DNA from: Desulfurococcales archaeon | GTDB lineage: Archaea; Thermoproteota; Thermoprotei_A; Sulfolobales; Acidilobaceae | Reading direction: 5' to 3' | Assembly (NCBI GenBank): GCA_015521115.1 | Contig: WAOT01000040.1 | Span: 1-64,000 of the forward strand | DNA: 64,000 bases | Shown: one piece after another, positions 1 through 27,804 of the stretch | Numbering within the stretch: position 1 is the first letter of the stretch | How the letters are laid out: every line of letters starts with the position of its first letter | Notes under the pieces: model-generated | What the model was told of the DNA's origin: nothing | The model's database searches: none | The model's input: only the letters and a program-made list of their open reading frames with translations | Program-made: the position numbers and the translations under genes

Positions 1-839
1 ATATTATATCGTTCTAATCTAAATATTATATCTTTAAAGTAATTTAAAGATTCGATTAATTTAACTGTATTGATATTTATGTTGAGCTGAACATTACTCA
101 GATTTTGTTCATGGCACATTATACCATAATCATAGTAGTTTATTCCTTCATGATATAAAGTTATAAATTTCCTCCACAAGTATGCTAAGATTTCTCCTGT
201 TTTTACAGCGGAGTCTAGTCTCAGTGTTTCATACATTAATCTGGTTTGTTTGCTAATATCTTCTGACTGTTTTCTAGATATATACACTTGTTTTCTAATA
301 TCTATAGCTTGAACAGCTACAGAATACGCCATCAATAGTGTTCCTGATGCGACTAATAATTGTAAAAAATTATGGATATCTCTTAATTCTGGAATTAATA
401 AAGAAATAACAATTAAGACAAAAATAAAAAATATAAATGAATTTAAAATAGAGTGATCTATTGTCCAAATTATATTATCGTTATTATCGTGACAACTAAT
501 TTGTAGGTCTGGACACTGTTTTCTAGGACAGTAGTATGGACACATGTTGTATATAGATATAATGCCTAGCCCTACAGTTATGATTAATAATCCTGTTGAT
601 AGAAACTTGTATAAATCCTCTGTTGATGATAATGTCAATCCATATAGAATAACATATGCTGACATTACAACTATTATAATCCAAAATGAAAATAGAAGGT
701 CAGGTTGATAACAAATATTATTACATAAAATTTCTATCGTTTTTATTTTACTTTTTTGTGTATTAAAATATTTAAAAATTATTAAAATCATAATAATTAA
801 TAATATGGAGCATAACGGTGAATTTAACACAGCATGCAC
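1..839 (-). CDS. Partial multi-span membrane protein, unknown function
   Basis: A minus-strand frame stays open from a stop at 870-872 to the window edge, so its 3' end is missing. From GTG 839 (TTG 867-869 is the other option; neither has a clear ribosome-binding site) it gives about 279 residues. About five hydrophobic segments are visible, near residues 8-25, 52-72, 88-106, 134-154 and 160-178. Between the third and fourth lies a cysteine-rich loop (MCPYYCPRKQCPD, then another Cys). After the last segment comes a polar stretch rich in Lys, Arg and Gln (IRKQVYISRKQSEDI). Low G+C suggests recent acquisition. I do not recognise the family. Confidence 0.6.
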   Translation of the reverse strand, partial: MHAVLNSPLCSILLIIMILIIFKYFNTQKSKIKTIEILCNNICYQPDLLFSFWIIIVVMSAYVILYGLTLSSTEDLYKFLSTGLLIITVGLGIISIYNMCPYYCPRKQCPDLQISCHDNNDNIIWTIDHSILNSFIFFIFVLIVISLLIPELRDIHNFLQLLVASGTLLMAYSVAVQAIDIRKQVYISRKQSEDISKQTRLMYETLRLDSAVKTGEILAYLWRKFITLYHEGINYYDYGIMCHEQNLSNVQLNININTVKLIESLNYFKDIIFRLERYN

Positions 840-1146
840 ATCGTTTGCGATGCTATTTTGTCCGATCAATTATATGACACCCAATATTATATTAGTGGGA
901 GTTTCGTTGCATTTATTGCTCGAGGGATTTTAGGCATCTTTGGTTACTTGATCCCGGGCGAGACCAAGTTTATCTTTATTGTGTTTTGGCTCTTCGAATT
1001 CATCCTTGTTGAATAATATGTTTACTTGCATGACCATATTTGGTCACTATCTTAGCTAGTTAGACAGTAAGATTTATTAGGTTTATCTAGCGGTTCTGCT
1101 TAGTTTTATAGGCAGTTAGTGAATTTAGTGTTTGGTTAGGATTCTG

Positions 1147-1311
1147 GTGTTTTCTAATTGGGTTGAGGAGGTTGAGGCTTCTCACGCTACTTTAAGTGTT
1201 AAGATTTTTGGTTTATGGCTTGAAGCTCGAACATGGATTGAGGGTGAGAGTGGTATCCTGAGGATAAATTGGGAGAAGCTTCTCATGATCCTTGTAGAGA
1301 GGATTTTTTAG
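1147..1311 (+). CDS. Short ORF, possible gene remnant
   Basis: GTG 1147 opens a 54-codon frame (59 codons from TTG 1132) ending at TAG 1309-1311. The peptide alternates charged and hydrophobic residues (HATLSVKIFGLWLEARTWI) and ends LLMILVERIF, like the tail of a beta-rich protein rather than random translation. There is no convincing Shine-Dalgarno sequence. It lies between the AT-rich flank and tRNA-His, so it could be the truncated end of a gene disrupted by integration. Family not recognised. Confidence 0.3.
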   Translation: MFSNWVEEVEASHATLSVKIFGLWLEARTWIEGESGILRINWEKLLMILVERIF

Positions 1312-1417
1312 GAAAAAGGGTCTGGTACTATATCTTTCCCTAGGTTTTCTGGGGGATTTTCTAGCGTGGGGGAGGGTTCTGTTGGTGATGGTGTAGAAGT
1401 GTTTGGTGGGGTGGTTG

Positions 1418-1496
1418 TGGGGCCCGGGCCGGGATTTGAACCCGGGGCCTCCGGATCCACAGTCCGGCGCTCTAACCAGGCTGAGCTACCCGGGCC
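1418..1496 (-). tRNA. tRNA-His (GTG)
   Basis: A full cloverleaf reads on the minus strand. The acceptor is GCCCGGG/CCCGGGC with an extra 5' G at 1496 (the G-1 of histidine tRNAs), discriminator C and an encoded CCA (1418-1420). The anticodon stem is CCGGA/TCCGG with loop CTGTGGA, giving anticodon GTG. The T-arm is CCGGG-TTCAAAT-CCCGG. There is no intron. Its 3' end faces the AT-rich flank, making it the likely integration target. A TATA-like element on the same strand near 1571-1579 implies a leader of about 50 nt removed by RNase P. Confidence 0.95.
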
Positions 1497-27365: not shown

Positions 27366-27502
27366 TGGTCCCGCCGCGGGGATTCGAACCCCGGACCACC
27401 CGGTTTCTGCCCGTACAGGGGCAGGGCCCCTATGAGGGTCCTTGCCTCGGGCAGGCGCCCACCCCCCTACAGCCGGGCGCTCTGCCGCTGAGCTACGGCG
27501 GG
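27366..27502 (-). tRNA. tRNA-Tyr (GTA) with 62-nt intron
   Basis: Minus-strand tRNA with acceptor CCCGCCG/CGGCGGG, i.e. the archaeal C1-G72 tyrosine identity pair, discriminator A and encoded CCA (27366-27368). The anticodon stem is CCCGG/CCGGG. The loop starts CTGTAG, giving anticodon GTA and G37; the intron then occupies 27405-27466 and the 3' exon resumes with A38. Insertion after position 37 is the canonical archaeal site and would be cut by the splicing endonuclease at a bulge-helix-bulge. T-arm CGGGG-TTCGAAT-CCCCG. Confidence 0.93.
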
Positions 27503-27695: not shown

Positions 27696-27804
27696 GCCGG
27701 GGTGGCCGAGCGGTCGAAGGCGGCGGGCTGCAGAGGCCCCGCGTGGGACGTGCCCATCGTGGAGACCCGTTATGTCCCGGGTTCGAATCCCGGCCCCGGC
27801 TCCA
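27696..27804 (+). tRNA. tRNA-Cys (GCA) with 31-nt intron
   Basis: Acceptor GCCGGGG/CCCCGGC with discriminator T73, the cysteine identity base, and encoded CCA (27802-27804). The anticodon stem is GCGGG/CCCGT; the loop begins CTGCAG, giving GCA, with the intron at 27734-27764 directly after position 37 and A38 beyond. T-arm CCGGG-TTCGAAT-CCCGG. A TATA-like GAATAAAAC near 27656 fits its promoter. It lies 20 bp upstream of tRNA-Glu and is probably cotranscribed with it. Confidence 0.93.

Follow-up and report, generated by a model that had tools for sequence, protein, structure and literature searches.

AT-rich DNA beside a tRNA-His gene of an Acidilobaceae archaeon as the probable worn-down cargo of an element that entered at that tRNA

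Results

The stretch of DNA analysed here (the window, 64,000 nucleotides) is G000:C40:1-64000, the larger part of an 81,440-bp contig in an assembly (G000) of 59 contigs and 1.73 Mb that is 99.9% complete and comes from an uncultivated member of the Acidilobaceae. At its left end lie an orphan membrane-protein gene, a truncated gene for a ribbon-helix-helix (RHH) regulator, a small divergent ORF that is probably decayed, and a tRNA-His gene (Table 1). The encoded CCA of the tRNA (1418-1420) faces the AT-rich segment, as the first-pass annotation had stated. The Cys-containing membrane-protein ORF on the minus strand was also rightly recognized there but was placed at 1-839 instead of running from 869 down to 3 with its TTG start, a codon found at the same alignment position in the relative from genome G002. 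In the spacer before the tRNA the integrase frame is open for 36 codons, and several empty sites are equally open. Farther into the window, Rfam reported two more tRNA genes, at 27369-27502 (minus strand) and 27696-27801 (plus strand), which are absent from the ARAGORN list and probably contain introns.

Table 1. Features in positions 1-1495 of the window
Feature	Position	Strand	Basis or remark
Orphan membrane-protein gene, AT-rich, at least 289 codons, TTG start, cut by contig end	3..869	-	ORF, G002 alignment
Truncated RHH regulator gene, 34 codons matched, then stop	936..1037	-	Homology to intact copies
Block 70% identical to G004:C70:10574-10812	939..1177	-	RHH gene, promoter region, start of divergent small gene
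59-codon ORF at the position of a divergent helical small protein in G004, G017 and G025	1132..1311	+	Start alone alignable
tRNA trailer and spacer	1178..1417		No integrase, no GYTATACG repeats
tRNA-His (GTG anticodon)	1418..1495	-	ARAGORN, Rfam; target of integrase family in related genomes

Bases 1-869 have a G+C content of about 28% compared with 53% for the contig. In 500-bp windows with starts at 1-700 the values are 25-32%, and the remainder of the window has a mean of 52.9% (standard deviation, 3.1) and a minimum of 42.8%. Steps of 100 bp give mostly 13-36% up to about position 870 and 34-45% across 900-1400, so that the earlier description of a drop to 25-30% over the first ~1.1 kb was right about the drop and slightly generous about its extent. 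Along the 81,440 bp of C40, G+C falls below 38% only at the two ends (1-1250 and 80751-81440). We rejected low G+C as stand-alone evidence, since the spacers beyond tRNA-His are equally AT-rich in relatives, with 32-37% G+C in several that are free of an element.

Base 1 of the window is a contig end that lies inside the orphan ORF, with no element boundary there, and because AT-rich genes are places where contigs of this MAG break, the sharp left edge of the window is biologically meaningless. A continuation of the orphan was sought on the other contig ends of G000 and was not found. Among the 116 readable contig ends, 17 have less than 38% G+C over the last 400 bp; these ends, and a gene apparently split between contigs C13 and C12, show that AT-rich contig edges in G000 are in part an assembly effect. 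The right end of C13 and the left end of C12 appear to carry the two halves of this single AT-rich gene, an intact relative of which (228 amino acids) is found at G002:C8, and the two contigs are probably adjacent. The opposite end of C40 (80521-81440) likewise ends within an AT-rich ORF that follows AbrB-like and RHH genes. The coincidence of the window edge with a contig end and the over-representation of AT-rich ends in G000 could suggest a chimeric contig or a binning artefact, but independent genomes from the genus contain, close to tRNA-His, relatives of the tRNA trailer as well as of the orphan, which makes an artefact scarcely credible.

The orphan had no match in Pfam or PHROG, a search of a phage collection gave no match either, and scans of IMG/VR with the orphan and with the integrase described below found nothing. 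The protein has the conserved motifs LCxxxCxxP and CxYxC, and the G+C content at third codon positions is 22%, compared with 57-60% in host genes. An AlphaFold model of the G002 protein had a mean pLDDT of 52 and a pTM of 0.31, and no fold search was based on it. Among the 214 genomes of the order, 5 contain a relative of the orphan, which in one case is a fragment, and a search in G017 did not find it. There are four other full copies, and every one lies within ~5 kb of an SSV-type integrase or a fragment of one: the two copies in G002 are 0.3 kb and 3.1 kb beyond tRNA-His, by an integrase fragment, the copy on G004:C70 is ~5 kb from the intact integrase that this genome has at tRNA-His, and that in G005 is ~2 kb from an integrase at tRNA-Gly.

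The long copy on G002:C4, with its match at 3.3-4.2 kb beyond tRNA-His, shares 78% nucleotide identity with the window orphan over 895 bp (68% at the amino acid level), and the values of pN (0.16), pS (0.41), pN/pS (0.39) and Jukes-Cantor dN/dS (0.30) between G000 and G002 indicate that the gene is under purifying selection. SRP54 is 71% identical at the nucleotide level between the same two genomes, below the value for the orphan. AT-rich genes can seem similar through codon bias, and since a raw comparison of pS alone is therefore unsafe for such a gene, we used instead a saturation control in which codons at identical amino acids were compared with codons sampled at random from the genes concerned. 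Identical codons made up 71% in the orphan, compared with 46% expected at saturation (z 7.8), whereas four core genes were at or near saturation (SRP54, z 0.8; SDR, -0.4; DJ-1, 2.3; a fourth gene, 0.9). The unsaturated silent sites of the orphan, beside the saturated ones of the core genes, show an exchange of the orphan between G000 and G002 after their lineages had separated and the silent sites of the core genes had become saturated.

With a silent divergence below that of core genes, and as one of the genes common to integrase-bearing loci and missing from most relatives, the orphan is a mobile-element gene. The earlier proposal of foreign AT-rich DNA carrying such an orphan is supported by the sparse relatives near integrases and by the silent-site similarity, and genome G003, of the same genus, has instead a radical-SAM gene ~0.5 kb beyond its tRNA-His, which agrees with the presence/absence pattern that the first-pass annotation had proposed to check. 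An AT-rich spacer native to the genome, holding a vertically inherited gene specific to the genus, would fit both the purifying selection and the AT-rich DNA beyond tRNA-His in several relatives. It is nevertheless highly improbable in view of the sparse distribution of the orphan and its differing contexts and orientation, and it is contradicted by a silent-site similarity far above that of core genes.

The integrase family is present in 14 of 48 Acidilobaceae genomes and, wherever a tRNA is in view, immediately follows it (tRNA-His, -Asn, -Thr, -Val or -Gly). G004, of the same genus as the source, encodes a tyrosine recombinase of 498 amino acids (Pfam PF00589, 1.8e-7; PHROG 5127, 3.7e-42) whose reading frame crosses the 3' half of tRNA-His, and the contig (G004:C70) breaks off at the core boundary, which falls in the anticodon region of that tRNA. 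At tRNA-His of G012 there is an integrase copy with in-frame stops, and the fragment in G002 consists of the first 114 residues, with 98% DNA identity to G004. In related genomes, one intact and two broken copies thus bear out the view that SSV-type integrases use tRNA-His as a target. The catalytic motif in the relatives is (K/R)xxR, and relatives of the integrase in the named collection are from Acidilobaceae MAGs.

A complete tRNA followed at once by int(C), in the frame that reads through it, was found in G017, G025, G016, G005, G063 and G000:C44. In G004 this arrangement can be followed as far as the end of the contig, which falls inside the tRNA. The far end can be seen in G017 (1,669,696 bp), where tRNA-Val is followed by int and an exact 50-bp copy of the 3' part of the tRNA, the att repeat, lies 38,049 bp on (G017:C1, ~542,636-580,734); the attR copy is entered by a short int(N) reading frame that has a Shine-Dalgarno sequence. 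From its size, and not from a sequence comparison, we take this 38,049-bp element to be probably the APSV1 provirus. APSV1 is a provirus of A. pernix K1 (PMC10769869). These loci show that Acidilobaceae elements carrying a tyrosine recombinase of the SSV type insert into the 3' half of tRNA genes, from the anticodon loop to the CCA and with tRNA-His among the targets. Such elements leave behind a complete tRNA with int(C) after it and, at the far end as seen in G017, int(N). At least one copy of GYTATACG was present in 10 of the 12 integrase-linked att flanks examined. Seven integrase loci have a pair of them spaced by 11 bp, 81-101 nt past the tRNA and inside the integrase coding sequence, and one further copy lies ~33 nt before the attR core of G017; these repeats are candidate arm-type sites.

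Other traces of the family were seen in the source genome and around the same tRNA in relatives. An intact int(C) of this family lies at tRNA-Asn on a 3.5-kb contig (G000:C44:505-2056), because of which the source genome probably holds a provirus or plasmid at tRNA-Asn, and at G000:C46:4748-4999 an old integration scar is left in the form of a decayed integrase start (SAIRVPYA motif) after tRNA-Thr. In G002, the protein of 344 amino acids beside the integrase fragment (L043:13878-14912) matches the PADLOC candidate defence family PDC-M41A (3.9e-19). On the 5' side of tRNA-His the window is syntenic with G001 only, and G002, G003 and G004 differ, which suggests frequent rearrangement at this tRNA.

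No integrase was found beside the tRNA-His of the window, where a complete tRNA is not followed by an int(C) that continues in frame through it. The integrase frame after the tRNA lacks the QS[VA]IRLLYA-like motif that is kept even in the decayed copies of G012 and C46, and GYTATACG repeats are absent both beside this tRNA and at the empty site of G003. A candidate integrase remnant at 1359-1463 (57% identity over 38 residues; E, 0.0018) was rejected as mostly tRNA and trailer, and the weak 22-codon match after the tRNA is A/C-rich trailer (CAAACCATCC-like), which is present at empty sites too.

The segment had been interpreted as one edge of a present-day provirus or plasmid, with the integrase and a second att to the left of base 1. 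This would be an arrangement like that of pNOB8, with the integrase at the far end. Position, composition, the orphan gene and an assembly broken at base 1 all suit an intact element, but the large integrase fragment of this family, int(C), and the GYTATACG repeats would adjoin the tRNA and hence lie inside the window, and because both are missing there the interpretation is unsupported. The truncated RHH gene also speaks against it, as does the search for the predicted second tRNA-His 3' end, which found none in the 99.9%-complete G000 at up to 3 mismatches in 30 bases; the first-pass annotation had named such an absence as refuting, but the fragmented assembly limits the test. An intact edge at this site is therefore improbable.

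The block at 939-1177 is collinear with the orphan in G004:C70. Intact homologues of the RHH gene, encoding 44-51 amino acids with the RHH domain as a weak Pfam match, were found in G000:C13, at the right end of G000:C40, on the G004 contig and in G025, among others. In other Acidilobaceae genomes the RHH gene is followed by differing partners, namely a Fic/Doc protein (Pfam Fic match, 3.3e-7), a PIN-like protein (judged by eye, with no confirmation from Pfam) and AT-rich unknowns. An RHH toxin-antitoxin module would have an intact antitoxin directly upstream of the toxin, and the window has a truncated RHH gene. An accessory or toxin-like function of the orphan under RHH control is plausible, since elsewhere the same RHH gene stands before Fic/Doc and further unrelated genes that are AT-rich.

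At three places (the right ends of G000:C13 and G000:C40, and G002:C8) the RHH cassette occurs with neither tRNA nor integrase in the retrieved flanks. The orphan block in G002 is inverted with respect to tRNA-His, which shows that this region was rearranged, and because the DNA common to the window and G002 also stops ~23 bp before the orphan start codon, the orphan may have arrived as a cassette and not with a whole element. An RHH and AT-rich gene cassette could even have been inserted beside tRNA-His by homologous or illegitimate recombination between cassettes, with no tRNA-targeted integration at all, and the swapped downstream genes, the breakpoints at gene starts and the inversion in G002 agree with this. 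However, all four other full orphan copies are near a tRNA-targeting integrase or fragment, and the same tRNA-His site is involved in three genomes of the genus, which leaves insertion of a cassette alone unlikely.

Discussion

We conclude, with a probability of roughly two-thirds, that bases 1 to ~1180 of the window are what is left of the cargo of an element whose point of entry into the chromosome was tRNA-His, and the segment is best read as a worn-down remnant cut by the contig end and not as the edge of an intact virus or plasmid. One element with an SSV-type integrase would have inserted at tRNA-His in an ancestor of the source strain, and its integrase and most of its other genes would later have been lost or rearranged. 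What remains would be an RHH-regulated membrane-protein cassette with a regulator that is now broken. Less firmly, the membrane protein could have been an RHH-controlled accessory gene with a defence, exclusion or toxin-like role.

The split-gene ("suicidal") arrangement is that of SSV-type integrases, as in SSV1, pTN3 and pT26-2 (PMC8371274). Like these, the related Acidilobaceae elements have an att inside the integrase gene, which is split upon integration, encode the att as protein, target the 3' half of a tRNA and have (K/R)xxR; unlike SSV-type elements (PMC8371274), the window has no integrase. Among named plasmids, the G004 enzyme matches integrases of Sulfolobales plasmids, that of pNOB8 included, at 25-32% identity over up to about three quarters of the protein. 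An integrated plasmid of the pNOB8 type has an intact integrase adjoining one att and a YxxR motif, in contrast to the (K/R)xxR of the Acidilobaceae relatives. The "dark matter islands" of archaeal genomes likewise contain fast-evolving orphan membrane genes tied to integrated elements (PMC4158269), whereas here one tRNA is the hotspot and the integrase family can be traced.

In type II toxin-antitoxin modules and spindle-shaped viruses, RHH (CopG-type) regulators have a similar layout, with a small RHH gene, an inverted-repeat promoter region and a partner gene that follows. The window differs from toxin-antitoxin modules in that its RHH gene is truncated and the partner is an uncharacterised membrane protein. 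A more speculative and rather doubtful extension is that archaea possess a new RHH-controlled module that pairs one conserved regulator and promoter with interchangeable effectors, of which the orphan is one, and that SSV-type elements of the Acidilobaceae that target tRNAs have spread it as cargo for toxicity or virus exclusion. Fic/Doc, the PIN-like protein recognized by eye and a number of membrane or helical proteins from AT-rich genes would, equally tentatively, be the other effectors of such a module.

A hint from base composition thus becomes a traced history, in which tRNA-His is a hotspot in the Acidilobaceae that is used by SSV-type integrases. At this hotspot a cargo gene has been swapped between species, and its regulator is paired with partners that can themselves be swapped. 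The related loci provide a testable set of attachment sites, each a core with GYTATACG repeats in the integrase gene, for a virus lineage with few described members.
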